Assembly: GCF_025291715.1 (NCBI RefSeq)
Contig: NZ_JAMBIZ010000021.1
Location: 1 to 60,312 of the forward strand
Length of the DNA stretch: 60,312 nucleotides
Source of the DNA: Metasolibacillus sp.
GTDB lineage: Bacteria; Bacillota; Bacilli; Bacillales_A; Planococcaceae
Direction of reading: 5' to 3'
The translations under genes and the position numbers were made by a program. Below are positions 2,700 through 60,312 of the stretch, piece by piece. A model generated the notes under the pieces. It did not search any database. It saw only the letters and a list, made by a program, of their open reading frames with translations, and was not told the origin of the DNA. Position 1 is the first letter of the stretch; every line of letters starts with the position of its first letter.

Positions 2700-3391
2700 T
2701 TTGGTTAGGAATTGAAACAGCAAATGCACCATTATCCATTGCATTAGTGCAAGATGGAAAAGTTATTGCAGAAGTTGTTCAACATATTAAAATAACACAT
2801 TCGGCAGGTGCGATGCCTGCTATTGAAGAGCTTTGTGCGAAAGCTTCTATTAAGCCAGCTGAAATAGATGCTATTGCTGTGTCAGAGGGCCCAGGTGCAT
2901 ATACAGGCGTGCGTATAGGTGTCACATTAGCAAAAACATTAGCATGGACATTGCAAAAGCCTTTAGTCGGTGTATCAAGCTTGCGAGTATTGGCTGTCAA
3001 TGGTCGCTTGTTTAACGGGTGCGTGTGTCCTTTATTTGATGCGAGACGTCAGCACGTCTATGCGGCAATTTATCGAGGACAAACGGCATTGTTGGAGGAT
3101 GGACATTATGCAATTGCTGATGTGTTAGCGCAAGTAAAACAATGTGGAGAGCAAACGTTGTTTATTGGGGAAGATGTAGCCTTGTATAAAGAGCAAATTG
3201 AAGAGATGTTAGGAGAGCAAGCAGTTTTTGCCCCATTTACATTGAATTTGCCTCGCGCTTCAGAGCTTGTGTCGTTAGCGATGAATCAAGCGCTGCCATC
3301 TATTGAAGCAACACATACTTTTGTGCCACAATATCGTCGTATTGCAGAGGCGGAGGCCAATTGGCTACAAACACAGAAGGAGAGCAAGTAA
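2696..3391 (+). CDS. tsaB: tRNA t6A modification protein TsaB
   Basis: 231 residues. N-terminal IETANAPLSIAL and SEGPGAYTGVRIG are characteristic of TsaB, a Kae1-like ASKHA-fold protein that lacks the metal site of TsaD. It is the scaffold that binds TsaD and TsaE in t6A synthesis. The start overlaps the tsaE stop as ATGA, indicating translational coupling, and rimI follows 3 bases later. Confidence 0.95.
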   Translation: MIWLGIETANAPLSIALVQDGKVIAEVVQHIKITHSAGAMPAIEELCAKASIKPAEIDAIAVSEGPGAYTGVRIGVTLAKTLAWTLQKPLVGVSSLRVLAVNGRLFNGCVCPLFDARRQHVYAAIYRGQTALLEDGHYAIADVLAQVKQCGEQTLFIGEDVALYKEQIEEMLGEQAVFAPFTLNLPRASELVSLAMNQALPSIEATHTFVPQYRRIAEAEANWLQTQKESK

Positions 3392-3394
3392 GCA

Positions 3395-3835
3395 ATGGTA
3401 CAATATCGGAAAATGACGGTGGAGGATGTCGAGGCGGTTTACGCAATTGAGGTTGCCTCGTTTCCTGTGCCTTGGACGCTTGATTCCTTTTATTATGAAA
3501 TGCTTGAAAATCAATTTGCTTATTATACGGTAGCAGAGGAAAGTGGCGAAATTCTCGGTTTTTGTGGTAGCTGGATGGTCGTTGATGCGGCGCAAATTAC
3601 CAATGTAGCTGTAGTGAAATCAGCACGTGGACGAAAAATTGGTGAAGGTCTAATGCGCGAGGCAATGCGTGTGGCACGTGAGGCGAATATGGAAACGATG
3701 AGCTTGGAAGTGCGTGTATCAAATGTTGTTGCGCAAAATTTATATTATAAGCTAGGCTTCCAAGATGGGGGTTTACGCAAAGGATACTATACTGATAATC
3801 AAGAGGATGCTCTTGTCATGTGGGTGAAATTATAA
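3395..3835 (+). CDS. rimI: Ribosomal protein S18-alanine N-acetyltransferase RimI
   Basis: 146 residues, the normal RimI length. GNAT fold with the acetyl-CoA loop ARGRKIGEG and a C-terminal N-x-x-A-Q-N-L-Y-x-K-L-G-F segment typical of RimI. It acetylates protein N-termini, classically of S18. A ribosome site AAGGAG lies before the ATG. Its place between tsaB and tsaD is the usual Firmicute arrangement. Confidence 0.92.
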   Translation: MVQYRKMTVEDVEAVYAIEVASFPVPWTLDSFYYEMLENQFAYYTVAEESGEILGFCGSWMVVDAAQITNVAVVKSARGRKIGEGLMREAMRVAREANMETMSLEVRVSNVVAQNLYYKLGFQDGGLRKGYYTDNQEDALVMWVKL

Positions 3836-4852
3836 ATGGAAAATCAATATATTTTAGCAATTGAAACGAGCTGTGATGAAACAGCAGCTGCGGTAATTAA
3901 AGATGGCACAACGATCATATCAAATGTCGTAGCCTCGCAGATTGAAAGTCACAAGCGCTTTGGTGGTGTTGTACCAGAAATTGCTTCACGTCACCATGTG
4001 GAGCAAGTAACGATTGTTATTGAGGAAGCATTAGCGCAAGCGCAATTACAGCCGAGTGAGCTAACAGCGGTAGCAATTACAGAAGGGCCAGGACTTGTAG
4101 GTGCATTGTTGATTGGTATTAATGCAGCAAAAGCATTTGCTTGGGCGCATCAATTGCCAATTGTTGGCGTGCATCATATTGCAGGGCATATTTATGCAAA
4201 TGCGCTTGTACAGCCGATGGAATTTCCACTATTGGCGCTAGTTGTATCAGGTGGGCATACGGAGCTTGTTTATATGAAGGAGCATGGGCATTTTGAGCTG
4301 ATTGGAGAAACGCGTGATGATGCAGCTGGTGAGGCATATGATAAAGTAGCGCGTGTTTTAAACTTGCCTTATCCAGGTGGGCCGCATATTGACAGATTGG
4401 CACACGAGGCAGATGAGGCGGTGGCATTCCCACGTGTTTGGTTAGAGGAGGATAGCTATGACTTTAGCTTTAGTGGCTTGAAATCAGCTGTCATTAACTA
4501 CAAGCATAATATGGATCAGCGTGGTGAAGAAATTATTGCGGCACATGTAGCAAAAGGCTTCCAAGATAGTGTTGTGGAAGTATTAACAACAAAAGCAGTG
4601 AGGGCTGCACGTGCATACAATGTAAAGCAAGTGATTGCAGCGGGTGGCGTTGCAGCAAATAAAGGCTTGCGTACAGCGTTAGAGCAAGCTTTTAAACAGG
4701 AGGGCATTCCATTTTATGTACCACCACTAAAGCTATGTACAGACAATGCTGCGATGATTGGTGCGGCAGGTGCGAAAATGTATGAAGCAGGTGTACGTGG
4801 TAATATGATGATGAATGGGCGCCCAGGAATGGAATTAAAAAGCTGGATGTAA
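3836..4852 (+). CDS. tsaD: tRNA N6-adenosine threonylcarbamoyltransferase TsaD
   Basis: 338 residues. N-terminal [11 protein letters not shown], the metal-binding HHIAGH with His114 and His118, SGGHTEL (138-144) and the late [10 protein letters not shown] and DNAAMIG motifs define TsaD (Gcp/YgjD). It transfers threonylcarbamoyl from TC-AMP to A37 of tRNA. The ATG abuts the rimI stop codon with no gap. A terminator closes the operon, and the DnaA-box cluster follows. Confidence 0.97.
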
Positions 4853-7775: not shown

Positions 7776-8402
7776 GTGAGCAAAGAAACGAAAATTCCAC
7801 AAGCAACTACGAAGAGGCTTCCTTTGTACTACCGATTTTTACAAAATTTTGCGAGTGAAGGCAAGCAACGTGTGTCCTCCCAAGAGCTGAGTGAAGCGAT
7901 GAAAATTGACTCAGCAACGATTCGCAGAGACTTTTCTTATTTTGGTGCTCTCGGTAAAAAAGGCTATGGCTATGATGTCCAGCATTTATTACAATTTTTT
8001 CGAGAAACGCTTGATCAAGATGAAGCAACAAATGTTGCTTTAATTGGGGTAGGTAATTTAGGAAATGCCTTTTTAAAATATAATTTTCAAAAAAACCATA
8101 ATACGCGTATTGTTGTTGCATTTGATTCAAAGGCGCCTGTAGAAGGAACAGAAATTAGTAATATTCCAGTTTTCCATCCGGACCGCTTAGAGGAAATGTA
8201 TGAGAAATATAATGCGGAATTAGCGATATTAACCGTATCAGCAAGATCGGCACAAGCAATGGCAGATCGTCTGGCACAAATGAATGCGAAAGGTATTTTA
8301 AACTTTACGCCGATTCGTTTAAATGTGCCTGAAACTATGAAGTTAATGAATATCGATTTATCTGTAGAGTTGCAGGCACTTATTTATTTGATACGCAATT
8401 AA
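7776..8402 (+). CDS. rex: Redox-sensing transcriptional repressor Rex
   Basis: 208 residues from the GTG at 7776; GCAGGAGGA sits 6 bases upstream, and the in-frame TTG at 7770 is too close to it. N-terminal winged helix with [13 protein letters not shown] (about 45-57) followed by a Rossmann NAD(H) domain with GVGNLG (91-96). Rex senses the NADH/NAD+ ratio and represses fermentation and respiration genes when NADH is low. Divergent from ydiF, as in B. subtilis. No Rex box was found by eye next to its own promoter. Confidence 0.95.
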
Positions 8403-8731
8403 GCATGGCGTTTATTTTTTTTGCGCATGCTACGGTATGGATGACGAAGTATTTGAAGTGGATGCTTGATATAAATGTCTCTAGATATGTATTGTTTCCT
8501 ACATACGGCGATAACATCTTTTACTAAATTGGCGGTGGAATCTTTGTCATAAGGGGATTGCATGACCTCGAAAACTTCAGGTTGAACAGTAATCAGCCAG
8601 CCATTGTTTGATCCCGTAATAATTAATTTGATGAAATTATACTCACCGATATGTTGGTAAGTGACAGCTGTAATTGCGATTTCTTTTTGATGCTGCAATT
8701 TAAGCCATTTACGTATACGGAATTTATTCAT
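8399..8731 (-). CDS. Hypothetical protein, 110 aa
   Basis: Basic protein of 110 residues with no signal peptide or membrane segment. A beta-rich middle ([20 protein letters not shown]) is followed by a helical, Cys-containing stretch and a basic tail ending KKNKRHA. Its stop overlaps the end of rex by 4 bases on the opposite strand, so the two converge. The ribosome site is weak. It has no counterpart at this position in B. subtilis as far as I recall. Function unknown. Confidence 0.6.
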
Positions 8732-8862
8732 ATTCGTAATTCCTATCTATATAAGTTAAATATTGCTATATAGTATAACAAAGTTACGAAATTATTCACA
8801 ACTAATGTATTAGCTAAATTGCGGAGAATGCGTTAAAATGTACATGAAGAGGAGGTGGCGTA

Positions 8863-47636: not shown

Positions 47637-49786
47637 AAAGAGATAGTCAATTTTATGTAGAATATAGCATCTATTACCTTATTGTTTTTCTTATTTTATG
47701 TGAGTGGCTAAAGCCGATTATGGAACTAACCAACACAGGATACAACCATTATTTTCTAATTTTTATTGCTCTTTCACTTGCACTTGCTTTGTTGGGATTA
47801 CCGTTAATCATTACATGGCTCATTAAAATAGCTTATATCGCCTTTTTTATTGTTCAAGCCTATAGCGATTATTCCATAGCTTCAACAGAGGGATTTGCAT
47901 TTTTATATAGTGATTTGCAATGGAATATATGGCAGCTAGTGCAACGGAATTTTACAGAAGTATCAAATCCATTCCGCACATTGCTCTTTTTAATTTTAAT
48001 TTGGATGCTCGTGTATTTAATACATCATTGGATTACTGTACGTATGAGCATTTTTTATTTTTTAGCGCTAACGATTTTCTTTATTGCAATGCTCGATACA
48101 TTTAGTGAATATGATGGAAAAGTGGCAATTATAAAGGTTGTATTACTTGGATTAATGCTAACAGCCTTCCTGTTCTTAAAGCGCTTCTCCACAACGATGG
48201 GCGCGTTTATGCAAAGGAAATCATCTCTGTACTATTGCATACCTGTCATCTTCTTTGTTAGCTTAGTAGGCTTGATTGCTTTTATGCTACCAAAAGCGCC
48301 ACCTCAATGGGCAGATCCTGTACCGTTTATTAAAGGGGTAGCAGGGGGAGGCATTGGGGGCACAGTAGAGGGGAAGGTTGGTTATGGAGAAAATGATGAA
48401 AAATTAGGCGGTGGCTTTTCTCAGGATGATACGGTGGTTTTCCGTGCCCATGCACCAAAAAAGCAATATTGGCGCATAGAAACGAAGGATTTCTACACGA
48501 CAAAAGGCTGGACTGTTGCAAATGGTAGCTATAATGAATGGGAAATCCCTTCGAATACATTATTACCACTATCCATTCCGATTGGTGAAGAACAGTCACA
48601 GGCAGAAATATTCCCACTTACTGATCTTCCATTTATTTTACAACCATATGGCTTGCAGCGCGTATTATTTGATGGTTCCACTATTTTTACAGAGGAAACG
48701 GAAAAGCTACAAACAGTCGTACAGAATACTATTGCTGTGCCAGAGCATTATCAGCTTATTTATAGTGAGCCTTCTTATAGCTTTACAGCATTGAAGGATG
48801 AAAACATGCCGAGAACGACTGTGAATTCAAGGTTTTTGCAATTGCCGCATGAATTGCCAGAGCGTGTACGAGATTTAGCCGAGGAAATTACTGGAGAATA
48901 TAATACGACGTATGATAAAGCGAGAGCAATTGAGCGTTACTTCCAGCAAAATGGCTTTATCTATGACACAAGAAATATTGCCTATCCGGCGCAGGAGCAG
49001 GACTATGTAGATCAATTTTTATTTGAAACGAAGCGTGGCTATTGTGATAATTTCTCTACAGCAATGGTTGTTATGCTGCGCTCTGTTGATATCCCTGCAA
49101 GATGGGTTAAAGGCTTTGTTGGCGGTGAGCAAATTGATCGTACAGATGATGGGTTAGTTGTCTTTGAAGTGCAAAACAATGATGCCCATTCTTGGGTAGA
49201 AGTCTATGTCGATGGGCTTGGCTGGATGCCATTTGAGCCAACAATTGGCTTCTCTAGCCCAGCATCTGTTGATTATGATGTAGATTTATCTGATATCGAG
49301 GATGAGCTTGTACCAGAGGAACAACGTGAGCTTGAACAGCAGCAGAAGGAAGAAATGGAGCAAGCTGTACAAAATGATCAAACAAATGAAGTAGCTACAA
49401 ATCTATTCAACGAAAAAAATAGAAAATGGCTCATTGCTTTAGCTATTGTAGTTATTGTTATTGTATATATCATGTATCGCCGCCGTCACAAGTGGCTACC
49501 GACAGTATATGTAAAAATGAATCGCCAAAAGAAGCAAAATGCAGGAAGCTTTGATTTATCGTATAGCCGTTTATTAAAGCAATTGGAGTACCAAGGCTTT
49601 AAACGTCAAAACTATCAAACACTGAAAAGCTTTGCACAAGAAGTTGATGCGCATTTTGGTACAAGTGATATGACAATTTTAACAGAAGCATATGAGCGCA
49701 TGATTTACAGTGAAAATGGTGAGGAATTAGATTTTGAACAGCTGAAAGAAAGTTGGGAATATTTAATCAATCGCACAGGTAGTTGA
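47633..49786 (+). CDS. yebA: Membrane transglutaminase-like protein
   Basis: 717 residues, start GTG 47633. Five or six membrane helices in the first ~225 residues, an external domain, then a transglutaminase core with Cys in TKRGYCDNFSTAMV, His in NDAHSWVEVYVDG and the following Asp-type strand WMPFEPT. One further membrane helix (about 597-616) is followed by a cytosolic tail with a DUF4129-like helical region. Catalyses or mimics thiol-type acyl chemistry outside the cell; substrate unknown. Ends 284 bp before guaA. Confidence 0.9.
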   Translation: MKRDSQFYVEYSIYYLIVFLILCEWLKPIMELTNTGYNHYFLIFIALSLALALLGLPLIITWLIKIAYIAFFIVQAYSDYSIASTEGFAFLYSDLQWNIWQLVQRNFTEVSNPFRTLLFLILIWMLVYLIHHWITVRMSIFYFLALTIFFIAMLDTFSEYDGKVAIIKVVLLGLMLTAFLFLKRFSTTMGAFMQRKSSLYYCIPVIFFVSLVGLIAFMLPKAPPQWADPVPFIKGVAGGGIGGTVEGKVGYGENDEKLGGGFSQDDTVVFRAHAPKKQYWRIETKDFYTTKGWTVANGSYNEWEIPSNTLLPLSIPIGEEQSQAEIFPLTDLPFILQPYGLQRVLFDGSTIFTEETEKLQTVVQNTIAVPEHYQLIYSEPSYSFTALKDENMPRTTVNSRFLQLPHELPERVRDLAEEITGEYNTTYDKARAIERYFQQNGFIYDTRNIAYPAQEQDYVDQFLFETKRGYCDNFSTAMVVMLRSVDIPARWVKGFVGGEQIDRTDDGLVVFEVQNNDAHSWVEVYVDGLGWMPFEPTIGFSSPASVDYDVDLSDIEDELVPEEQRELEQQQKEEMEQAVQNDQTNEVATNLFNEKNRKWLIALAIVVIVIVYIMYRRRHKWLPTVYVKMNRQKKQNAGSFDLSYSRLLKQLEYQGFKRQNYQTLKSFAQEVDAHFGTSDMTILTEAYERMIYSENGEELDFEQLKESWEYLINRTGS

Positions 49787-49889
49787 TTTTACACGATACA
49801 AAGGGTAAAATTGCAGAAGAATATTTGTTATTTAAAAAAGGAGCTACAAGCCTTTTTAAGTACAACAAACAGAAAAATAGAAAATATAT

Positions 49890-49962
49890 GCCTTCATATA
49901 GGTCCGATAATATGGTTCGGATGTCTCTACTAAGTTGCCGTAAATAACTTATCTATGATGGC
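49890..49962 (+). promoter_or_regulatory. Guanine riboswitch aptamer
   Basis: Purine riboswitch: P1 GCCTTCATA / TATGATGGC, core GATAATATGG, GTCTCTACT and CCGTAAAT. The nucleotide that pairs the ligand, in ATCTATG near the 3' end, is C, which specifies guanine (U would give adenine). Located upstream of guaA with a terminator between; guanine should reduce guaA expression. Confidence 0.93.
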
Positions 49963-49985
49963 GGATTTGTTATATAATCCGCTTG

Positions 49986-50031
49986 GAGAAGGAACGCGCT
50001 GAAATGTAATTTTCTGCGCGTTCCTTCTTAT
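49986..50031 (+). terminator. Guanine riboswitch terminator
   Basis: AGAAGGAACGCGC and GCGCGTTCCTTCT form a perfect 13-bp stem with a 16-base loop. The T tract (TATC) is poor, so control may be partial. A second hairpin, GCGGATT/AATCCGC (49961-49982), overlaps the P1 3' strand and could be the switching antiterminator. Confidence 0.75.
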
Positions 50032-50070
50032 CAATATGAAGCATTTTAAACTAAAGAAGAGGTGGAATTT

Positions 50071-51621
50071 GTGTCAACTCCTTTATTAAAAGAGCAAGAG
50101 AAAATTGTCGTTCTTGACTTCGGAAGCCAGTTTAATCAATTAATTACGCGTCGTATTCGTGAATTTGGTGTATTTTCAGAACTACATCCTCACACAGTAA
50201 CAGCGCAGGAAATTAAAGAAATGAATGCTGTAGGTATCGTATTTTCAGGCGGGCCCAACTCAGTTTATGATGAGCAAGCATTTAAAGTTGATCCGGCTAT
50301 TTTTGACTTAGGGTTACCAATTTTAGGGATTTGTTATGGTATGCAGTTAATCGCACATACACTAGATGGAAAAGTGGAAAGTGCAGAAACACGTGAATAT
50401 GGTAAAGCAGAAATTAATATTGTGACAGAAAATAAATTATTTGGAGACTTACCAAAGGAGCAAATTGTGTGGATGAGCCATGGTGACCATGTAACAGAGG
50501 TACCATCAGGCTTTGAGATTATTGCAACAAGCCCTGCATGTCCAATTGCAGCTATTGCAAATGTGAAACGCAACCTTTACGCAGTTCAGTTCCATCCAGA
50601 AGTACGTCACTCTGTTTATGGTAATGACTTATTAAAAAACTTTGTGTTTGATGTATGTAACGCAAAGGGCGATTGGTCGATGGCAAACTTCATCGATATG
50701 GAAATTGCTAAAATTCGCGAGCAAGTCGGCGATAAGCAAGTTCTTTGTGCACTATCAGGCGGCGTAGATTCTTCAGTTGTAGCTGTATTAATCCACAAAG
50801 CAATCGGCGATCAACTAACATGTATGTTCGTAGACCACAACTTAAACCGTAAAGGCGAAGTCGAGCAAGTGATGAAAACTTTCACTGAAGATTTCGACAT
50901 GAAAGTTATCAAAATTGATGCACGCGAACGCTTTATGAACAAGCTAAAAGGCGTATCAGACCCAGAGCAAAAGCGCAAAATTATCGGCAACGAATTCATC
51001 TATGTATTCGACGAAGAGTCAGCAAAACTAAAAGACATGGACTTCTTAGCACAGGGCACGCTGTACACAGACATCATCGAATCAGGCACAGCAACAGCCC
51101 AAACAATTAAATCCCACCACAATGTAGGTGGATTACCAGAGGACATGAAGTTCCAACTAATCGAGCCATTAAATACATTATTTAAGGATGAGGTACGTGC
51201 ACTAGGCTTAGAGCTAGGCCTTCCAGAAGCGGTCGTATGGCGTCAACCATTCCCAGGCCCAGGCTTAGGTATCCGTGTACTTGGCGAAGTAACAGAGGAA
51301 AAATTAGAAATCGTACGTGAAGCTGACTACATTTTACGTGAAGAAATCAAAAATGCAGGCTTAGAACGCGACATTTGGCAATACTTCGCTGTACTTCCAG
51401 ATATCCGTTCAGTAGGTGTAATGGGCGATGGCCGTACATACGACTACGCCATCGGCATCCGCGGCGTAACATCCATTGACGGCATGACATCAGACTGGGC
51501 ACGCATTCCATATGATGTGCTAGAGAAAATTTCAGTACGTATTGTCAATGAAGTGTCAGGTGTTAACCGTGTGCTGTATGACATTACATCGAAGCCACCT
51601 GCGACGATTGAGTGGGAATAA
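50071..51621 (+). CDS. guaA: GMP synthase (glutamine-hydrolysing)
   Basis: 516 residues from GTG 50071, eight bases after AAGAGG; GTG 50062 overlaps that site. N-terminal class I glutamine amidotransferase with Cys in GICYGMQL and His in QFHPE, then an ATP pyrophosphatase with SGGVDSS and a dimerisation domain ending PPATIEWE. Converts XMP to GMP. Its last three codons and stop (GAGTGGGAATAA) are the core of the attachment site used by the element that follows, so the protein end is unchanged by integration. Confidence 0.98.
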
Positions 51622-51623
51622 TT
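51610..51623 (+). repeat. attL, 14-bp core
   Basis: GAGTGGGAATAATT, the end of guaA including the stop codon. The same 14 bases recur at 60200-60213 as attR. Together they bound the integrated element. Confidence 0.85.
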
Positions 51624-51629
51624 AAAATA

Positions 51630-51677
51630 AGCTTAGAATCCTTTGCTTTAAAGGTTTCTAAGCTCTTTTTGTTTTTG
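51630..51677 (+). terminator. Terminator after guaA, inside the element
   Basis: AGCTTAGAA..CC pairs with GG..TTCTAAGCT and a long T-rich run follows. It lies on the element side of attL, so the element now supplies the transcription stop for guaA. Confidence 0.85.
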
Positions 51678-51680
51678 TTT

Positions 51681-51698
51681 GCAAACAAATCGCAAACA
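51681..51698 (+). repeat. Left arm-type sites (2 x GCAAACA)
   Basis: GCAAACA at 51681-51687 and 51692-51698, 11-bp period, about 60-75 bp inside attL. The same doublet in the same orientation lies near attR. Likely sites for the N-terminal arm-binding domain of the integrase. Confidence 0.6.
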
Positions 51699-51709
51699 TC
51701 AATACAGGT

Positions 51710-52624
51710 TTAATTACTAACTTCTTGTTTTTTTTCTTTATAGTGTTCTTCTAATTTGTTTAGAGAGTAGTTGAAAGTCGAACGGTTTGCTTCAGCTATT
51801 AAAATATCTACACGTTCTTTAAACTTTTTATCTTCTTTTTCTTTCAGTTTCCCAATGGATTCCTTTTTTACCCTATCCCATTCTACCTTCATATAAACTT
51901 GTGTATATAGAAGTAAATCGTCATGTAAGCTATTAATAGTTTCGTTTATTTTTCTTGGCTCTTTTATAAGATTGCTATTAAGTTGATTAATATGTTTAAG
52001 TATATCTTCATGTACTGCATCATCTATAGATTTTAATACTTCATCAACACCGCCTAGTTTTTCGATTTTTAACCGAAACTTTTCTGCGTCATCAATATCA
52101 AGATTTAAAATGTTTTCTATAAATAGTTTTGGATTATTTTTAATGAGTTCATTTTCATACAATTTGAGAGCAAAATTTCTTTTGTCTTCATCAGTTGAAT
52201 TATACAACTCTAATAAGTCGGCAAGAACCTGAATTGAATATTCAATTTTATTTATAGTTTCGATAATTTTTGAATCAATATACCCTTTAAAATTTAAGTG
52301 TAAAAGAATTTTATTTCTTGTTTTAGAAAGTTCATTAAAATATTCAAATTTACTATCTCCAGAAATTTTAACAGGTGTATGTGTATTGACTTCAGTTAAT
52401 ACAATAAAATGATTAATCATCTCTTTGGTGTTGTTCATCCATTCGATACGATTATTTGTAATCGTGTTGATAAATAAAGTCTTTTTACTACGACTATTAT
52501 TTATTAGTGCAACAATTAAAGAAATACCAGCCGTTATCATTACACCTATTAAAGTGAAAATAACTTTAGTAATATCAAGTGTGTTATCTTTGTTTGTAAA
52601 AAAATCAGTAATAAAATTTTCCAT
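51710..52624 (-). CDS. Membrane-anchored protein of unknown function (element cargo)
   Basis: 304 residues. One N-terminal membrane helix (about 21-42), then an all-helical, highly charged cytosolic part with the motif NNRIEWMNNTKEMI (58-71) just after the membrane. The rest is repeated Lys/Glu/Asn-rich helices (LNFKGYIDSKIIETINKIE; LLLYTQVYMKVEWDRVKKES). No catalytic motif recognised. It is read from its own start, downstream of int on the same strand, in the slot next to attL where related elements often carry fitness or anti-phage cargo. Low GC. Role unknown; defence is only an inference from position and layout. Confidence 0.8.
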   Translation of the reverse strand: MENFITDFFTNKDNTLDITKVIFTLIGVMITAGISLIVALINNSRSKKTLFINTITNNRIEWMNNTKEMINHFIVLTEVNTHTPVKISGDSKFEYFNELSKTRNKILLHLNFKGYIDSKIIETINKIEYSIQVLADLLELYNSTDEDKRNFALKLYENELIKNNPKLFIENILNLDIDDAEKFRLKIEKLGGVDEVLKSIDDAVHEDILKHINQLNSNLIKEPRKINETINSLHDDLLLYTQVYMKVEWDRVKKESIGKLKEKEDKKFKERVDILIAEANRSTFNYSLNKLEEHYKEKKQEVSN

Positions 52625-52684
52625 TTTAATTAAGGACTCCCTTGATTTGTGTCTGCATCAATAATACTAAATTAAGGGAATTTT

Positions 52685-53866
52685 TCATATGTTATTTCGA
52701 TTTTTTACATACTGATTTGAAATCATTTTTCGATTGGGCGTAGTTGTATGTTTAACGTTTATAATGTTTTTTAATCGATTCGCCACTTCGCGATTCATAT
52801 TAGGATATAAATGTCCGTACGTTCCTAATGTGGTTTGAATATCCTCATGACCTAATCTATCACGTATTACTAAAGCATTTTCCCCTAGTGAGATTAGCAA
52901 TGAAGCGTGGGAGTGTCTTAAAGCGTGAGTTCTTATTTTATGAACGCCAGCTAATTTTGAGTGCTGCTCAAGAATATGGAATGTAGCACTTTTATTTGTG
53001 GGGAAACCGTTATAGGATAAAACATACTTGGAGGGAAAGACGTGTTGCTGTCTTTCTCTCCATTTTTTTAGAAAGTTGATAGTATCATCATCTAGAGCAA
53101 TAACACGATTACTAGCTTTTGTTTTAGGCTCTGTAATGTAAAACTCATTTGCGTTTTTATAATACATTGATTTATTTACCGTTAGCGTTTTTTCCTTCAA
53201 GTCAATATCAGAATCCCATTCTAATGCTTGTGCTTCACCAAAGCGTAAGCCTGTCATGAATAAAAGCCAAATCATGATGAATGAAAAATGTTGGTGGAAA
53301 TCAGAAATGTTAAATGTAGCGATAACTTTTTCAAATTCTTCTTTCGTCCAGAAGTCCACTTTCTTTTTGACCTTCTTCACGTTACCTACTGTTTTAGCTC
53401 CGTTTGTTTGTAATAAACCTAATTTCACAGCTAGGTCTAAATTCTTTTGTAACAATCCATGAACATTACGAATATAGGCATTAGAGTAATTTTCGGAAAG
53501 TTTATTTTGCCACTGTTTTATTAATGGTGGGCTAATGTCTTTCAATTTTTTAGTGTAGAAAAATTTGAAATGAAGATCCATAGAAGATTCTCTATTTTCA
53601 AATGTTCTTGCACTTACTGACCGCTTATAATCTGGTTTGAAATAAGTTTCATAAAACTCTTTAAATGCCATTGTGCTATTTTTCTTCACAGACGTAGAAG
53701 AATAATTATTCATATACTCGTCATAAGCCTTTTTAGCTTCTTTTTGAGATAGGAAACCACGCTCCCAATGTTGAATTCGTTTGCCTGTTTCATCGTATCC
53801 AAGACTTGCTACAAAGTACCATTTGCCATTTCTTTTATCCTGATAGACATTAGCTATCTTAGGCAT
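52685..53866 (-). CDS. int: Tyrosine recombinase/integrase of the element
   Basis: 393 residues from ATG 53866, which follows GGAGATAAACATC and overlaps the upstream DUF3173 stop; an 8-residue longer frame is less likely. N-terminal arm-binding domain (MPKIANVYQDKRNGKWYF), core-binding SAM-like domain (about 65-165) and catalytic domain with Arg208 (MTGLRFGEA), His314-x-x-Arg317 (HALR), His340 (LGHED) and nucleophile Tyr350 (TYGHLYP). Catalyses integration and excision at the guaA site. Tn916/ICEBs1-like family. Confidence 0.95.
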   Translation of the reverse strand: MPKIANVYQDKRNGKWYFVASLGYDETGKRIQHWERGFLSQKEAKKAYDEYMNNYSSTSVKKNSTMAFKEFYETYFKPDYKRSVSARTFENRESSMDLHFKFFYTKKLKDISPPLIKQWQNKLSENYSNAYIRNVHGLLQKNLDLAVKLGLLQTNGAKTVGNVKKVKKKVDFWTKEEFEKVIATFNISDFHQHFSFIMIWLLFMTGLRFGEAQALEWDSDIDLKEKTLTVNKSMYYKNANEFYITEPKTKASNRVIALDDDTINFLKKWRERQQHVFPSKYVLSYNGFPTNKSATFHILEQHSKLAGVHKIRTHALRHSHASLLISLGENALVIRDRLGHEDIQTTLGTYGHLYPNMNREVANRLKNIINVKHTTTPNRKMISNQYVKNRNNI

Positions 53867-54065
53867 GATGTTTATCTCCAGTTGATTCAAGTGAGAAACC
53901 TAGAATTTCCTCTACTGCTTTAACTGGAACTCTTCCTAAGCGTTTACTTGCATAGTAGGAGAACCCTTTACTTTGCATTAAATACTTAGCTTGGCGAATA
54001 ATATCAGCTGATTGGCTAGGACCAAATCCTAAATTAATTAATTCTTGTTTAGTTACTGTAATCAT
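53859..54065 (-). CDS. DUF3173 protein, putative excisionase/recombination factor
   Basis: 68 residues: TKQELINLGFGPSQSADIIRQAK, KGFSYYASKRLGRVPVKAVEEILG. This matches DUF3173, a small helix-turn-helix-like family that almost always sits directly upstream of ICE/IME integrases. The 5' end overlaps the rep stop by 17 bases and the 3' end overlaps int, so the three genes are translationally linked. An Xis-like role is likely but inferred. Confidence 0.85.
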   Translation of the reverse strand: MITVTKQELINLGFGPSQSADIIRQAKYLMQSKGFSYYASKRLGRVPVKAVEEILGFSLESTGDKHHA

Positions 54066-54885
54066 TGTTTATTAACCCCTTTCGATATTTCGTATAATGA
54101 ACGGTTGAATTCTTAAAATTTTTATCTGGGGACTGAAAGTCTGGGATATTTCGTGTATACTCTTTAGTGTAAATAATATTTGTTTTGGGCAAATCAATCG
54201 GTTGCAACGAGTTGATTCGTCTAATTGTTGGCTTTTTTAAATTTTGCGATTTAAAAAAAGCCTTTTTTTTATGCTCTTTAAATTCCAAGTCTTTAGAGAA
54301 ATATTTACTAACATAACGACCTCGATTCTCTTGACTGTCTACATCGATTTTATTTAATTTAACAAATCCATGTCCCCAGATGTTTTGTAGATTCTTTATT
54401 TTGATAAATGGTAAGTCAAAGAAAATTACATGGTAATGAATAGCGCCACGTTTTTGCTTTTCCCAAACAGCTAAATATTTTAATTGCTGTGTTTTCTGTT
54501 TATACAAATCGTAATTTAATCGTTTTATAAATTTGTTGAATTCTAAATTAGTAAAGTTAATATCTTGTTCGTTTTCTTTGAATGTTAATGTCATAAATTT
54601 TGTTTTGTTATCAAAGTTGCAGTCGACAATATGAGCAATTTCCCAACGCATATGCTCATAATGTTTTTGCTTTCGTTTAAGGCTGTCATATTGATTGTTG
54701 GTTTTTGTAGGGATGGAATCATCACTTATTTCATTTACCCTGTCATTAAGGTTATGCAATGTTTCGCTATCAACTTTAACGGAGTAAAAAACAGGGTCAT
54801 CAATATATTCCCAAACTTCGATAGTTGTCGGTGTTTCAACAATTTTAAATTTATAGCTTCTAGTTTCTTTATTGATAGGAATCAC
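54049..54885 (-). CDS. HUH replication-initiation/relaxase protein (Rep, ORF2/G2P-like)
   Basis: 278 residues, start GTG 54885 with AGGGA upstream. The HUH motif HYH lies at 150-152 in AIHYHVIFF, preceded by FMTLTFK (97-103), and the tyrosine motif RYVSKYFSKD has Tyr191 and Tyr195. This is the REP_ORF2/G2P type of rolling-circle initiator, which nicks DNA and stays covalently attached. In IMEs such proteins serve both replication after excision and mobilization. The C-terminal ~70 residues are basic and unstructured. The nearest upstream DNA is the putative oriT. Confidence 0.85.
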   Translation of the reverse strand: MIPINKETRSYKFKIVETPTTIEVWEYIDDPVFYSVKVDSETLHNLNDRVNEISDDSIPTKTNNQYDSLKRKQKHYEHMRWEIAHIVDCNFDNKTKFMTLTFKENEQDINFTNLEFNKFIKRLNYDLYKQKTQQLKYLAVWEKQKRGAIHYHVIFFDLPFIKIKNLQNIWGHGFVKLNKIDVDSQENRGRYVSKYFSKDLEFKEHKKKAFFKSQNLKKPTIRRINSLQPIDLPKTNIIYTKEYTRNIPDFQSPDKNFKNSTVHYTKYRKGLINNDYSN

Positions 54886-54889
54886 TCAT

Positions 54890-55045
54890 TTCAAATCCCT
54901 GTCATGAACTTCTCCAGTATTTATTTTCTCTAGATGTTGTTCTATATATCAAGTTAAGAAGCTCGCATAAACCGCTCGCTTGGACCTCTCAATCAATAGA
55001 AAAGACTCGGCCACTCCGTTCGGACGCTAGGGCGTCCGCCTCCCT
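54890..55045. promoter_or_regulatory. Putative oriT / double-strand origin region
   Basis: About 140 bp between rep and the ftsK-like gene with much higher GC than its surroundings. It contains a perfect 7-bp hairpin, CGGACGC-TAGG-GCGTCCG (55021-55038, overlapping the ftsK stop), a repeated GCTCGC/CCGCTCGCTTGG stretch (54960-54982) and CTCGGCCACTCCGTTCGG. Position and structure fit a nick site for the adjacent HUH protein. No match to a named oriT is claimed. Confidence 0.45.
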
Positions 55046-56394
55046 ATTTCGATTGATTTCGAGGTTGCAGTTGGAGTGTTTTGTTTGGATATATTTTGTA
55101 AATCATCTAGTAAATTATACCCTTTCGGGATTAGAGGGGTCTCAAAATATATAGGCAAATTATTATTTTGACCATCAATCAAGATATATCCACCTCCAAT
55201 TTCCTTGATGGATTTATACTCCATATCTGAAGAGCCGAAAAGCATTCTTCTGCCATCATCAGTCATATTTGAGAGACCTATTCTTACACCAAAATTATCC
55301 CTTAAAGAACCATTTAGTATAGATGCATCTGGGCGTTGGAGTAATATACATATTTCTCCGCCAACCTGCCTTGACTTCAAAACAAGGCTGTATAGATAAT
55401 TTTGTACTTCTTTAACTATTTTAGGAGTACTTATTGCTGAAAATATAGCGTATTCGTCAAATACCACCAGAAAAGGTTTTGCACCATCGATATCTTTCCA
55501 TGTTTTCCCGAATGAGTCCTGTTCAGCAAACCATTCTTTGTAGCGTCTTTCCATTTCTTCGTGTGCCTCTCGTAATAACTTAGCAATTTCATTCTCGGTC
55601 GTTGCAGTATGTTCTTTATCTATGATTCTCCCAATCGTAGCAAGATCAGCTGATTTAGGATCAGCTATAAACAATTTAGCTCCTTTGCTCAAGTAATCTA
55701 GAATTAAGGTATTGACTAGACTTGTTTTACCTGAGCCAGTTGAACCTGATATAAGGATATGTGGAGGGGAGCCAATTTCCCAATTAATCTTGGACGTAAT
55801 TTGGATTTTGTAATTGCTAGTATTTCTGCTAGAGTCTGTAACCATAATTCGTTTATCTGGGATTAGCTCAAAGACATAATCACAATATTGAACTTCATTG
55901 AATTTTTTATATAATGGTAGTCCGAATAATGCACAAAGTAATGTATCATATGAATTTGCCTTATCAGAGAATTTATCAGCTTTTTTTAATGCTCTTATAA
56001 TTAATTCGTCGTTATCCGTTGTCTTATATAAGAAATATGCAGAGTTAACAATTGCTTTTGTTTTCTTCACACGCCCATTCCCATTTATCCCAACTTCACG
56101 AATTTCTTCTTCGTACAATTTATTATCTTTAATGAACCGTTTTAATTTCTTAAGAGGAGAACTGTTATATTTTTTTCGAAGTGATATCCAATTTTTAAAA
56201 AAATATATCGACATTGTTAAAAACAATAGAGAATAAAAGAATTGTAGTACGTTTGAGTGTGAAAAATAATTAATAGTGAAAGCTGCAAGACCAATTATAA
56301 AAATGACTGTGGTTAATAGAAAACTGAAACTAGGGAATATTGGAGTTTTTGAAAAGTAACTCACCTTTTTAAAATTATTCTTACGTTTCTTCAA
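55027..56394 (-). CDS. FtsK/SpoIIIE-like coupling ATPase (TcpA type)
   Basis: 455 residues, start TTG 56394 preceded by GGAGG. Two membrane helices (about 22-42 and 50-66), then an FtsK/HerA-type motor: Walker A GSTGSGKTS (217-225), Walker B FLVVFDEYAIF (about 303-313) and the LKSRQVGGEICILLQRPDASI segment. TcpA-like proteins hand the relaxase-DNA complex to the conjugation channel. Same role as orf21 of Tn916 and ConQ of ICEBs1. It lies just downstream of the interrupted conjugation gene. Confidence 0.9.
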   Translation of the reverse strand: MKKRKNNFKKVSYFSKTPIFPSFSFLLTTVIFIIGLAAFTINYFSHSNVLQFFYSLLFLTMSIYFFKNWISLRKKYNSSPLKKLKRFIKDNKLYEEEIREVGINGNGRVKKTKAIVNSAYFLYKTTDNDELIIRALKKADKFSDKANSYDTLLCALFGLPLYKKFNEVQYCDYVFELIPDKRIMVTDSSRNTSNYKIQITSKINWEIGSPPHILISGSTGSGKTSLVNTLILDYLSKGAKLFIADPKSADLATIGRIIDKEHTATTENEIAKLLREAHEEMERRYKEWFAEQDSFGKTWKDIDGAKPFLVVFDEYAIFSAISTPKIVKEVQNYLYSLVLKSRQVGGEICILLQRPDASILNGSLRDNFGVRIGLSNMTDDGRRMLFGSSDMEYKSIKEIGGGYILIDGQNNNLPIYFETPLIPKGYNLLDDLQNISKQNTPTATSKSIEIGRRTP

Positions 56395-56397
56395 TAA

Positions 56398-56724
56398 TTA
56401 TTCCTCCTTACAAACAAAACATTTATCAGCTTTACTAGATAATTGAATCCAGCCATTTTGGACATAAGGAGTAATGGTTAAGTTTTCAAAAGCTACAATT
56501 GTGCCTTCAGGGATGTCTTCTTTTTCTGTATTGAATAAAGGACGTTGTTCGTCAATTTTAATAGACACTTTTTCAAATTTGCGCTCTACACAAACTACAC
56601 TGTACACGTAAGAAATAATTTTATCTGTACGTTCGAATTTTCCATCACCATTTTTTACTTGTTCAAATTTGGGAGCTATATCAACTAATAATAGTGTGCT
56701 ACCTAAAGTAGCGATTGGTGAGTA
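56398..56724 (-). pseudogene. 3' part of a conjugation-module gene split by IS21 (YdcP/Orf22-like)
   Basis: Codes for about 108 residues, YSPIATLGSTLLLVDIAPKFE to KCFVCKEE, with no start of its own; the frame continues only into the IS inverted repeat, where a GTG gives an artificial MAQNSAF start without a ribosome site. Its beta-rich sequence (IPEGTIVAFENLTITPYVQNG) resembles the DUF961/YdcP proteins that precede the FtsK-like gene in Tn916-type elements. The 5' end is at 59339-59371. The two halves join in frame if the IS and one 4-bp target copy are removed. Confidence 0.7.
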
Positions 56725-56876
56725 CTGCGGAGCGTTTGAGCCAGCAGTGCGGAACTTTAAGCCAGTGAATGCGGAGTTTTGAGCCACCGATTGCGGACAA
56801 TTGAGCCACTTTTAAGAAAAGGAAAACAACTACTGAAACTGCAGCTAGTTGTTTTCCTTTTTAATTTGAAAATAAT

Positions 56877-57635
56877 CTATCGCTTAAGTGGTTTTAGACC
56901 ATGGCGCTCGCGCATCGAGACTTCGCCATCAATTAAAATGTGGTAAGAATCATGTACAATACGGTCTAAGATAGCGTCTGCGATTTGGGCATGGCCAAGT
57001 TTCGCGTACCAGCCTTCCGGCGCAAATTGAGAACAGAAGATAGTTGAAGCCTTTTTTAAACGAGCCTCCACAATTTCGAAAACGTTTAAAACTTGTTCCT
57101 CTGATAGGTCTGTTAAAAGCCATTCGTCTATAATGAGTAAATCGATTTTTTTGTAATGCTGAATAAGTTTTCGGTAGCTGCCATCTGCTTCATATTTCGC
57201 TACAGCTAGTTCATCTAGTAGTTCCGGGAGGCGTATATATTTAACTTTGTGAAATTGACGGCAGGCATGAACACCGAATGCATTGGCTATATAGCTTTTT
57301 CCGTTGCCTGAAGCGCCCATTAAAATGATGTTGTGGTGATTTTGAATGTAGTTTCCTGTAGCTAATTCTAAGATGAGGTTTTTATCTAAACGGCGATCTG
57401 GATGGTATTCAATATCTTCAATGGCAGCCGACGGCTCATTGAACGTCGCTTGTTTGATTAAACGAGCGAGTTTATTCGATTTGCGGCGATCATATTCTGT
57501 ATCTGTTAAGAGACTAAAAAGATCATTAAAATCCATATCACGATAGGCTGGATTTTGGTTGATTTCCTGATAGAGTTCCGCCATTGCGCTTAAACCCATT
57601 TCTGAAAGCTTACGTAGTGTTTCTTGTTTACTCAT
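56877..57635 (-). CDS. istB: IS21-family helper ATPase IstB
   Basis: 252 residues. DnaC-like AAA+ ATPase with Walker A GASGNGKS (107-114) and Walker B LLIIDEW (166-172), full length. IstB assembles on DNA and selects target sites for IstA. It overlaps istA by 4 bases (ATGA), the usual IS21 arrangement. Confidence 0.95.
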   Translation of the reverse strand: MSKQETLRKLSEMGLSAMAELYQEINQNPAYRDMDFNDLFSLLTDTEYDRRKSNKLARLIKQATFNEPSAAIEDIEYHPDRRLDKNLILELATGNYIQNHHNIILMGASGNGKSYIANAFGVHACRQFHKVKYIRLPELLDELAVAKYEADGSYRKLIQHYKKIDLLIIDEWLLTDLSEEQVLNVFEIVEARLKKASTIFCSQFAPEGWYAKLGHAQIADAILDRIVHDSYHILIDGEVSMRERHGLKPLKR

Positions 57636-59173
57636 TTTTTCTCCCTCCCGAAATAAGCAGCACCACGTGTAAATCCGTGATTTTCATTCGAAGTTTTTAT
57701 GGATGGTACGCTCTTTGTTTTTGAAGCCTGTTTTGTTCTTTCTAATAGGCCTTTTAAAACTGTATTAGAGGGGCTTGATGAGATTTCAAGTAACGTCTTA
57801 ATGGCTTGCTCAAGTTCTTCTGCCGTATATTTCTTCACCATGTTTTGTAATGTACTTAAAATTTGGAGTGCTTTTTTCTCTACATGATTTTCTAAAATAT
57901 ACGCGACATATTTTTCCGTAAATGAACCGATGGTTGTTGCCCATTTAGTTACGTTTTCAGGATTATGTTCTACGTAAGAACGATGGTGATCTGGCATATG
58001 ATCAATGTTTGTAGAATATTGTCCTATCTCACCTTTTAATCGTTTATGGGATGCAATTCGTGCTTCTTTAAAGTACACTTCAATTAGATCTGTTGTTAAA
58101 CGAATATCGACCGATTCACGGGCGTATTCGTAAGGGACGGAATAATACATGCGTTCAACTTGGGTGTGGTAGTTCAGTTGAACCTTGGCGGTTTTCCATT
58201 CCGTCATTTTGAAGCGTGTTTGAGGCAGTTGCTGGAGAGTGCTTTTCTCTTCTTCCTCAAATACGCTTTTTCGTGTTCCTGGACGTTTTTGAAAATCGGT
58301 TGTGTTGATTTCTTCTAATTTTTCAGCGATATACTGATTCAGCTCGTTAATGTGAAAACACTGTGCGTTGCGTAATGCAGCGATGATTTGTCTTGAGGCA
58401 TGTCCTACGCTACCTTCGGCACTTGGCTTATCTTTTGGCTTTTGCACACGACTTGGCACGATAACTGTACGATAGTGATCAGCCAGTTCACGGTATGCCT
58501 CATTTAAAACAGATTCTTCGCGTTTCGCTTTAATGACACCGGTTTTTAAATTATCAGGTACAAGGGTTTCCGTAACACCACCAAAATAATCGAAGGCATG
58601 GATGTGTGCTGTTAACCAACTCGTCGATTTCATGTCTAAAAAAGCTTCTACATACATCATTTGGCTATACGGCAAAGCAGCGACGAATACATACGCAGGC
58701 ATTTCTTCACCTGTTGCACGGTCTCGAATAGAGAGTGTTGCACCAGCCCAATCGACTTCCATAATTTCACCTGGCTTGCGTCTTAGCGGCATCGTTAGTT
58801 TAAATTTTCGCGCATAATGACCATATTTTTCAGCGAATGTCCGATAGGCATAGGGGATTTTCTCTGCTTCCTTTGCAGCTAGCGCGTACTCGTGATGTAA
58901 AAGTTTGAGCGTCACATGCTTTTTCTGTAATTCTTTATGCACCTTCTCCCAATCCACAGGATAATAGCCTTTTTCAATTGGCTGTTTCTCGGGGTAAAGA
59001 TATTCCTCTAGCCAAGCGTTTGTCATCGTGTCGTTTAACAAAGTAATCCTGAGATTTCTCGCACGTTGGATTACGTCAGATATGGTATTGCGAGAGTGTC
59101 CGGTGCTAGCGCTAATCGTTCTTTGGCTAATGCCATCAAAGGAAAGAGCTAGTATTTTACGGTAATCAATCAT
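57632..59173 (-). CDS. istA: IS21-family transposase IstA
   Basis: 513 residues with AGGAGG upstream. N-terminal helix-turn-helix (FDGISQRTISASTGHSRNTI), a DDE integrase core opened by MEVDWAGATL and followed by ETLVPDNLKTGV, and the Mu-type C-terminal barrel. No stop codon or frameshift is seen, so the element may be active. Confidence 0.95.
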   Translation of the reverse strand: MIDYRKILALSFDGISQRTISASTGHSRNTISDVIQRARNLRITLLNDTMTNAWLEEYLYPEKQPIEKGYYPVDWEKVHKELQKKHVTLKLLHHEYALAAKEAEKIPYAYRTFAEKYGHYARKFKLTMPLRRKPGEIMEVDWAGATLSIRDRATGEEMPAYVFVAALPYSQMMYVEAFLDMKSTSWLTAHIHAFDYFGGVTETLVPDNLKTGVIKAKREESVLNEAYRELADHYRTVIVPSRVQKPKDKPSAEGSVGHASRQIIAALRNAQCFHINELNQYIAEKLEEINTTDFQKRPGTRKSVFEEEEKSTLQQLPQTRFKMTEWKTAKVQLNYHTQVERMYYSVPYEYARESVDIRLTTDLIEVYFKEARIASHKRLKGEIGQYSTNIDHMPDHHRSYVEHNPENVTKWATTIGSFTEKYVAYILENHVEKKALQILSTLQNMVKKYTAEELEQAIKTLLEISSSPSNTVLKGLLERTKQASKTKSVPSIKTSNENHGFTRGAAYFGREKK

Positions 59174-59338
59174 AAAAAATCCTCCTGTTCTGAAGTGTCA
59201 TGCTGGGTGGCATGCTCCTTCATTATACAGGAGGTTTAAGGGAATATATGTAAGTGGCTCAAAGTTTCCGCACTCGGTGGCTCAATTGTCCGCATTGAGT
59301 GGCTTAATGTTCCGCACTAGTGGTCTTTTTTGATCGCA

Positions 59339-59371
59339 ATATTCAATTGGGTCAATTACGGGTTTTAACAT
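59339..59371 (-). pseudogene. 5' end of the split conjugation gene (11 codons)
   Basis: ATG at 59371 preceded by GAGGAATTACT encodes MLKPVIDPIEY before reaching the IS end at 59338. Joined to 56724-56398 it gives a ~118-residue protein, a normal length for the family. This start and ribosome site are the native ones; the IS lies directly after codon 11. Confidence 0.65.
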
Positions 59372-59439
59372 AGTAATTCCTCATTTCTACGGTTTTTTTG
59401 TTGTACTAAAGTTTCTATATCCTTTCTCTATATTCTGGG

Positions 59440-59488
59440 TTATTTAGATTTCGTAACAGTGATTAAGGGTATAATCGTTCTAAATAAC
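59440..59488. promoter_or_regulatory. Inverted repeat flanking a promoter-like TATAAT
   Basis: GTTATTTAGA (59440-59449) and TCTAAATAAC (59479-59488) are exact 10-bp inverted arms, with TATAAT at 59470-59475 between them. It lies in the divergent region between the conjugation operon (minus) and the duplicated-domain gene (plus), a natural place for an operator. No regulator gene is in the element. Otherwise 59372-59604 is AT-rich non-coding DNA. Confidence 0.45.
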
Positions 59489-59604
59489 TTAAATTTACTT
59501 TAAACTCCTTGAATTTAATTGTCAAGCTTTTATGGCTATATTTCTGTTTATTTACTGCTTCGTGGTAATATAACTTATAAATATAATGTGAGGTGTTATT
59601 ACTA

Positions 59605-60075
59605 ATGAAAAATGAAAGACATCAGAAGTTTCGTGAGATTTCAGAACGACGTATGACTCGAGTGTTCGAAAATATGAATTTGATAGCCAATCTATCGAAT
59701 AAAAAAAATTATGAGTATGTTGTAAATGAAGAAATAGAGGAATTATTTTATGCTTATAGGAAGAAGGGAGAAGAAATTAAATCTTATTTTGAAAACAATG
59801 TAAGTATTAAACCTACTGTAACTGAATTTAAATTTTTGGTAATAAATGATATTGGGGATTTGGAACCCAAAAGGAAGAAATTTAGAGAACTTGCAGAATC
59901 CAGAATGACTAAAGTTTTTCAAGATATGAACTTAATAGCTAACCTTTCTAATAAAACGAATTATACTTACACAATTCAAGAGGTAGATGAATTGTTTCAA
60001 GCATATGAAGAAAAAGGAAGAATGGTTGAATCTAGATTTTTACCTTTAATAAAAGAATTCAAATACACGATTTAA
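59605..60075 (+). CDS. Small protein made of two copies of one domain (element cargo)
   Basis: 156 residues from ATG 59605, about 9 bases after GAGGTG; an in-frame GTG at 59593 is within that site. Residues 8-62 and 92-145 are two copies of one ~55-residue helical unit: KFRE-x-x-E-x-RMT-x-VF-x-x-MNLIANLSNK, then NY-Y and a closing helix; MNLIANLSNK is identical at 24-33 and 108-117. Copies are joined by a linker ending TEFKFLV, with a similar KEFKYTI after copy 2. Only gene on the plus strand, next to attR. Function unknown. Confidence 0.8.
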   Translation: MKNERHQKFREISERRMTRVFENMNLIANLSNKKNYEYVVNEEIEELFYAYRKKGEEIKSYFENNVSIKPTVTEFKFLVINDIGDLEPKRKKFRELAESRMTKVFQDMNLIANLSNKTNYTYTIQEVDELFQAYEEKGRMVESRFLPLIKEFKYTI

Positions 60076-60088
60076 GAACATTAAATAT

Positions 60089-60106
60089 GCAAACAATTTG
60101 CAAACA
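60089..60106 (+). repeat. Right arm-type sites (2 x GCAAACA)
   Basis: GCAAACA at 60089-60095 and 60100-60106, 11-bp period, about 95-110 bp inside attR. Same doublet and orientation as 51681-51698. Confidence 0.6.
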
Positions 60107-60199
60107 ATAGAAATAAATTTATACTCAATTAAAAGGATATAACCATTCTAAAAGTGCTCTAAATCAATGAATTACTTTTAATGAATCGTAAAAATCATG

Positions 60200-60213
60200 G
60201 AGTGGGAATAATT
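60200..60213 (+). repeat. attR, 14-bp core
   Basis: GAGTGGGAATAATT, identical to the guaA 3' end at 51610-51623. Preceding bases differ (ATCATG against CGATT), as expected for an attachment-site junction. Confidence 0.85.
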
Positions 60214-60312
60214 CACTAAGAACATTTGAAGTAAATGATGATAGTCTAAATTATGGACACAGTAAATTGGGAGTTTATAAAGTATAATAGTCTCAATAAT
60301 TTACTAGGAGTG
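60214..60312 (+). other. Right flank of the element; start signals of the next gene
   Basis: DNA that would directly follow guaA if the element were absent. It contains a TATAAT at 60283-60288 and AGGAG at 60306-60310 at the very end, suggesting a gene that begins just past the window. No terminator is seen here, so without the element guaA would read toward this gene. Confidence 0.4.

Follow-up and report, generated by a model that had tools for sequence, protein, structure and literature searches.

A guaA-integrated element of Metasolibacillus sp. that is probably mobilized by a helper and is interrupted by an IS21-family insertion

The stretch of DNA analyzed here (the window) comprises bases 1–60312 of contig C13 (NZ_JAMBIZ010000021.1) in the 3.83 Mb, 83-contig genome of a Metasolibacillus sp. 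Adjoining the 3′ end of guaA, between two copies of a 14-base repeat, the window holds an element of about 8.6 kb core to core, or about 6.0 kb without the insertion sequence (IS) that it contains (Table 1). A preliminary description of this locus had named an intact tyrosine integrase, a DUF3173 protein, a HUH Rep and an FtsK-like motor, and had seen no genes for a type IV secretion system (T4SS). Pfam matches confirm that all four proteins are encoded between the repeats. No T4SS family scored above its cut-off there, so no VirB4 mating channel is recognized, and no FA-type mating-channel genes were found in this interval. The genes for the four proteins, the 304-aa cargo protein (ORF304, from the list of open reading frames, ORFs) and the gene cut by the IS lie on the minus strand, and a 160-aa gene lies on the plus strand. 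The order of the module reads as helP-like, conQ/tcpA-like, origin, rep, DUF3173 and int, with the first member assigned by a predicted OB fold. The DUF3173 gene sits just upstream of the tyrosine integrase gene on the same strand in 6/6 loci with matches over the cut-off; in locus L072 the integrase is split into two frames.

Table 1. Features of the guaA-borne element and its borders, in window coordinates
Feature	Position	Strand	Basis
guaA (GMP synthase), target gene, 3′ end stays intact	50062..51621	+	ORF list; homologous guaA in 4 other genus genomes
attL core GAGTGGGAATAATT	51610..51623	+	exact repeat
Cargo, 304-aa protein (ORF304), one N-terminal hydrophobic segment	51710..52624	-	hydropathy; no Pfam/PADLOC match
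Tyrosine integrase	52685..53890	-	PF00589 1.3e-22; arm-binding PF14657 9.5e-14
DUF3173, candidate excisionase / directionality factor by position only	53859..54065	-	PF11372 4.4e-26
HUH rolling-circle Rep, candidate relaxase	54049..54885	-	PF23343 5.6e-25; invariant residues
Candidate Rep nick origin (double-strand origin/origin of transfer, dso/oriT) TTAACTTGATATATAGAACAACATCTAGAGAAAAT	54923..54957	-	motif comparison, profile test
Inverted repeat / hairpin, just upstream of origin, overlaps ftsK end	54984..55065		DNA fold
FtsK-like motor, hydrophobic N-terminus, candidate TcpA/ConQ-type coupling protein	55027..56394	-	PF01580 4.9e-12; PDB profile matches; tree
HelP-like gene, 3′ part, severed from start by IS21	56398..56718	-	73% identity to intact M. 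meyeri gene
IS21-family insertion	56719..59345		istA/istB, ends, target duplication
istB	56877..57635	-	PF01695 2.9e-52
istA	57632..59173	-
HelP-like gene, 5′ end, about nine codons	59346..59371	-	sequence reading
Divergent 160-aa protein, internal duplication, candidate regulator (guess)	59593..60075	+	ORF list; 52% homologue adjoins ftsK in genome G260
attR core GAGTGGGAATAATT	60200..60213	+	exact repeat

The attL core falls exactly on the 3′ end of guaA and takes in its stop codon. Repeats in this position have been stated for integrative and conjugative elements (ICEs; PMC4701971). The earlier view of guaA as a recurrent integration site in Firmicutes agrees with print, since the gene is a known hotspot and guaA elements have been published (PMC12479173, PMC4701971). 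As the preliminary description had it, the 14-base repeats are exact, and neither strand of the window holds a third exact copy. If two mismatches are allowed, three matches are found against 0.66 expected, the third at 48606–48619 on the minus strand. Since 2 of 100 shuffles also reach three, the weight rests on the exactness of the repeats, on their position at guaA and on the empty site described below. To the right of attR, bases 60232–60312 belong to a repeat that is 99–100% identical on two other contigs of the host (C3, bases 585–665, and the end of C34), and unique right flank inside the window amounts to only about 18 bp. For the element in the window, this repeat stands in the way of a comparison with an empty site. 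By eye, it is the start of an IS3-type element, with a 118-aa transposase-like ORF in L047. With such a repeat to the right of attR, the earlier statement that the element is the sole accessory block of a syntenic region finds no support here.

Comparison within the genus (five genomes: our own, G065, G066 of the same species, G067, which is M. meyeri, and G068) argues for mobility. M. meyeri carries a sister element (L014/L044) of 6,700 bp core to core in the same guaA site. In G068, guaA reads through the core into the right flank of the M. meyeri attR, with 38 bases matching at one mismatch and a gapped match continuing to about base 200; on the left side, weaker similarity extends about 65 bases past the core. 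Judged from this alignment, the G068 junction represents the unoccupied site of the M. meyeri element. Together with the sister at the same guaA site, it shows by sequence comparison that elements of this kind move. The guaA downstream regions thus yielded an empty site with core for the sister element only. For the window's own element a clean empty site was not demonstrated, and the 10 kb downstream of guaA in G065 contain no exact 12-base core. The integrase and att sites that the element brings itself are consistent with site-specific integration. Its presence varies as the preliminary reading implied: the own genome and M. meyeri carry it or its sister, and the FtsK-like protein found no match at E ≤ 1e-30 in G066, G065 or G068. 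With this threshold, 11 of the 261 family genomes are positive, our own included. A census of Rep across the phylum gave 3/398 genomes at E ≤ 1e-20, again with our own.

The two sister elements are unevenly related. Rep and integrase are 96% identical, FtsK 51%. The DNA is 94.2% identical over 2,519 bp, from a point within the last 65 ftsK codons to near the end of the integrase gene, and 71.7% alike over 886 bp covering the HelP-like gene and the 5′ part of ftsK, with no match between both stretches. This pattern in the aligned DNA suggests that modules were swapped near the origin.

The Rep protein belongs to PF23343 (G2P-like HUH) and matches neither MobT (PF02486) nor Rep_trans. The preliminary description had placed it within a module related to Tn916 and ICEBs1; the order of the module is indeed alike, but the family of the initiator is a different one. 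The HYH and Y..KY residues are invariant in 9/9 aligned proteins, which are 38–96% identical to the window Rep. Twelve loci of gut Clostridia, most of them titled as Lachnospiraceae, contain relatives, as do 73 plasmid records, of which 50 come from Enterococcus. Some of these plasmids measure about 1.5 kb, from which we surmise that a Rep of this type can sustain a small replicon.

Upstream of rep, the window has a 35-bp motif in common with the relatives in gut Clostridia and Enterococcus faecium. The sequence ACTTG[AT]T[AT]TA is found there in 11 of the 13 loci L015–L027 (not in L020 and L025), in the window, in M. meyeri, in L050 and in both E. faecium copies. A profile of this origin trained on 10 of these sites was applied to 19 test sequences with 30 shuffles each. 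It beat all shuffles in six cases (window, L014, L050, L067, L097 and L053), of which the window and L014 go back to one common ancestor at the origin. The other 13, including the Fusobacterium plasmids pKH9 and pKCOM1281 and a stretch of phiX174, did not rise above the shuffles, and yet these three contain 9 to 12 of the core bases. In the window, the motif is preceded by a predicted DNA hairpin. By motif comparison, the 35-bp sequence is a candidate for the site that Rep nicks. Locus L019 contains two Rep/integrase units in tandem (Reps at 3228–4010 and 7965–8810), with the ACTTGATATATA core upstream of each.

The IS was overlooked in the preliminary description. It measures 2,627 bp, about 30% of the 8.6 kb, and has the features of the IS21 family, namely an istA/istB pair, terminal inverted repeats and a short target duplication (ATTGG, 5 bp, at 56714–56718 and 59346–59350). 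One full-length copy was found in the host genome; the remaining matches cover at most 67 bases. About nine codons into the leading gene of the operon, the insertion interrupts it and moves the operon 2.6 kb away from its upstream region. From the IS end, an open frame (56398–56787) continues into the severed gene, so that a fusion product is possible.

The intact M. meyeri homologue of this split gene has a predicted OB fold that is closest to HelP/Tn916 Orf22 (reference structure 2k5d, an Orf22/HelP homologue), and this fold prediction makes the split gene a candidate for a HelP-like OB-fold protein. Against PF06125 (DUF961) the protein gave no Pfam match and an hhalign probability of 0.3. 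Related genes are present in 8/12 gut-Clostridia loci, and an E. faecium protein is 35% identical to that of L022 over 79 residues (2e-15). Two E. faecium plasmids (L067, L097) hold mini-elements composed of HelP-like, Rep and integrase genes; the slot between rep and int is occupied by DUF3173 in one and by an HTH_17 match just below the cut-off in the other.

The FtsK-like protein (455 aa) is a P-loop motor with one N-terminal hydrophobic stretch above the cut-off (residues 17–45). A profile of five relatives matches FtsK (2.5e-23) and the solved "DNA translocase coupling protein" 6o1w–6o1z (7e-20), and weak matches to VirB4/TraD-type ATPases stay below the cut-off. In a tree computed without pCW3 TcpA and with a weak backbone, the protein forms a clade with those of M. 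meyeri and G260 (100/99), apart from Tn916-type and chromosomal FtsK. The name TcpA-like is a guess, drawn from the gene order and from overall similarity.

A possible helper was looked for in the genus. The host genome itself has a T4SS-like cluster on contig C11 (about 228000–252000; L107/L108) with VirD4 (PF02534), a VirB4-type protein (PF03135, 24.5 bits vs 21), a DUF5592/PrgI-like protein (PrgI below cut-off), lysozyme/M23 and Toprim proteins. A VirD4 match with a similar neighborhood occurs in G065 and a further VirD4 match in G067. Since elements with such initiators have been suggested to use TcpA helpers only (PMC5704250), this cluster is a poor helper candidate. In G066, the same guaA site is occupied by a different island (L043, 2200–17760). 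It encodes an integrase and DUF3173, has another copy of the core at 17743 and by eye shows Tn916 Orf7/Orf8-like and transposase-like genes. G068 has a DUF961 match in its guaA region. These Tn916-type genes point to a suitable helper having occupied this guaA site in the past. G068 also contains a second, divergent guaA 3′ fragment (L046, 13457–13921; 154 aa) with the same core at its end, about 3.2 kb from the full guaA, perhaps left by an element that came in together with its att site.

Taken together, these observations support the core of the preliminary description, a small integrated element at guaA with an integrase, an initiator and an FtsK/TcpA-like protein but without its own T4SS. 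We assign a probability of roughly 0.75 to an integrative and mobilizable element (IME) that depends on a helper and functions as follows. The integrase, probably steered by DUF3173, would recombine attL with attR to give an excised circle with one GAGTGGGAATA core, and the att layout predicts that guaA is whole in either state. Rep, acting as relaxase, would nick the conserved origin between ftsK and rep. The circle would then be copied by rolling-circle replication, with a host helicase presumably aided by the HelP-like protein. The FtsK-like protein, as a TcpA/ConQ-type coupling protein, would pass the Rep-bound single strand into the mating channel that a conjugative element in the same cell provides. 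The slot between integrase and attL would carry exchangeable cargo.

In this strain, the element may be weakened or stuck, because the IS21 insertion cuts the operon off both from the HelP-like start and from the sequence upstream. Several observations speak for an integrating rolling-circle replicon that has no conjugative transfer, uses its FtsK-like motor for segregation and spreads by transformation or transduction. Relatives of Rep occur on plasmids of 1.5–1.8 kb without an annotated mobility gene. The FtsK cluster is represented in 0/12 gut-Clostridia loci and absent from the annotation of the two E. faecium stretches. TpcC was detected in 0/5 genus genomes, with B. subtilis positive as a control. 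Since HelP is also a replication factor, the mini-elements fit such a replicon just as well. Nevertheless, we regard a purely replicative element as unlikely: the arrangement of the FtsK-like, HelP-like and Rep genes is that of ICE transfer modules, and ICEBs1 mobilizes plasmids via their Rep proteins and ConQ, as excerpted from a review.

Still less probable is autonomous transfer as double-stranded DNA through the FtsK-like pump, in the manner of actinomycete integrative and conjugative elements (AICEs) with TraB. Integrase, Rep and one FtsK-like membrane protein do make up the gene set of AICEs (PMC3218068, abstract), and there are weak matches of Rep to RepSA of pSAM2 (1.4e-5, 24.9 bits vs 34, thus sub-cut-off) and to the TraB model (1.4e-5, 23.8 bits vs 800). 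However, no FtsK gamma domain was matched, similarity to relatives ends near residue 440 of 455 and leaves little room for one, and the presence of a HelP-like gene speaks for single-stranded processing. The tree bears little on this question, with no certified TraB included; its Streptomyces row groups with chromosomal FtsK, and its Rhodococcus row is a long branch. The remnant of a filamentous (inovirus-like) or other small single-stranded phage is the least credible origin: the Rep family is named after phage G2P, Rep matches occur in 14 phage records and 8 viral contigs, and a 4.09-kb "Bacteriophage sp." record holds a mini-element, but the scanned element proteins matched no coat or Zot family in Pfam or PHROGs, the 4.09-kb record consists of two HTH-like genes, a HelP-like gene, Rep and an integrase piece with no coat gene recognized by cluster or eye, and the two terminase-labeled PHROGs hit by the FtsK-like protein (1.4e-9 and 0.0065) are weaker than the FtsK-labeled ones (1.1e-32 and 5e-18).

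The preferred reading, a helper-dependent IME, also agrees with elements in print, and the earlier label "uncharacterized" has to be withdrawn, since the class has been published (PMC5357655, PMC12479173). Streptococcal elements with a PHA00330-type relaxase and TcpA have been described by class and gene order (PMC5357655), and PHA00330 elements are reported in guaA of S. suis (PMC12479173). That the class exists, inserts at guaA and goes with TcpA is documented in PMC5357655, PMC5704250, PMC4701971, PMC5714925, PMC7563491, PMC12479173, PMC9371924, PMC3542172, PMC12614216 and PMC13239906. Our element resembles the streptococcal IME_class_3 (PHA00330-type relaxase, TcpA, tyrosine integrase) in gene set, gene order, lack of a T4SS and guaA site, and it has the single PF01580 FtsK-like protein upstream of the initiator. 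It differs in its host and in the HelP-like gene (here cut by IS21) and the origin proposed above. Its Rep is assigned to PF23343, possibly corresponds to the CDD model PHA00330 and is homologous to the pKH9 Rep. In the excerpts of the literature on this class we found neither an origin motif nor a HelP-like gene described for such IMEs. The helP-conQ-nicK module of ICEBs1/Tn916 likewise has an OB-fold protein (the nearest to our predicted fold being Orf22/HelP), an FtsK-like protein and an initiator in this order. In contrast to that module, the window has a PF23343 HUH initiator instead of Rep_trans/MobT, no mating-channel genes and an origin motif unlike the CT'AA nick site (PMC9371924).

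The mini-elements of gut Clostridia and E. faecium share a Rep 54–60% identical to ours, the integrase and the origin motif, but no FtsK-like gene was seen in them. The plasmids pKH9 and pKCOM1281 both encode Rep and an FtsK-like protein and hold the exact 12-base ACTTGATATATA; in pKH9, Rep is 38% identical to the window's and a 105-aa protein falls into the HelP-like cluster. Unlike our element, they are autonomous circular plasmids with no annotated integrase and with a Txe toxin gene, and their 12-base site lies after ftsK instead of before rep, with the full origin profile not significant. The pKH9 paper (Bachrach 2004) is reportedly cited for such initiators. In the viral-strand origin of phiX174, the annotated base (4306) is the A that follows CTTG within ACTTGATAT, the same nine bases that form the core in the window; otherwise this origin is unlike ours, and 6/30 shuffles were as good in the profile test. 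A bolder idea is improbable: the FtsK-like motor alone would move DNA with no conjugative helper, as a Firmicutes counterpart of AICEs with the FtsK-less mini-elements as its parasites. In a second one, a weaker claim but the likelier of the two, a phiX-type HUH replicon would have replaced MobT in a HelP/ConQ module, with one 35-bp site serving as both replication and transfer origin.

The element thus appears to be a real but ordinary mobilizable element of a known class, probably helper-dependent and possibly impaired in this strain. Relative to the excerpted literature, in which such small mobilizable elements are known from streptococci, it carries the class into an environmental genus. 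It also adds two testable parts, namely a candidate nick origin for a PF23343 Rep and a HelP-like partner still present in many of the smallest relatives.

The slot between integrase and attL varies between close relatives and seems exchangeable, with ORF304 in the window and a reverse transcriptase (RT) gene in the M. meyeri sister. ORF304, a putative membrane protein, occurs in 1/261 family genomes, its own. It gave nothing better than 0.02 in NCBIfam and PHROGs and no match in phages or viral contigs; one weak plasmid match was found (35% over residues 22–127, 4e-4). The sister cargo (L014, 6630–8345) bears the PADLOC label RT-Toprim_I-C (4.1e-242), which makes it a gene labeled as a retron-type defense protein. 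In Pfam, this protein matches RVT_1 only and no Toprim domain, so that the Toprim part of the label comes from PADLOC. At gathering cut-offs, Rfam placed no RNA, and so no retron RNA, beside the RT gene in L014. In bases 49800–60312 of the window, the same search returned only a purine riboswitch (RF00167, 82.9 bits) at 49874–49975, upstream of guaA.

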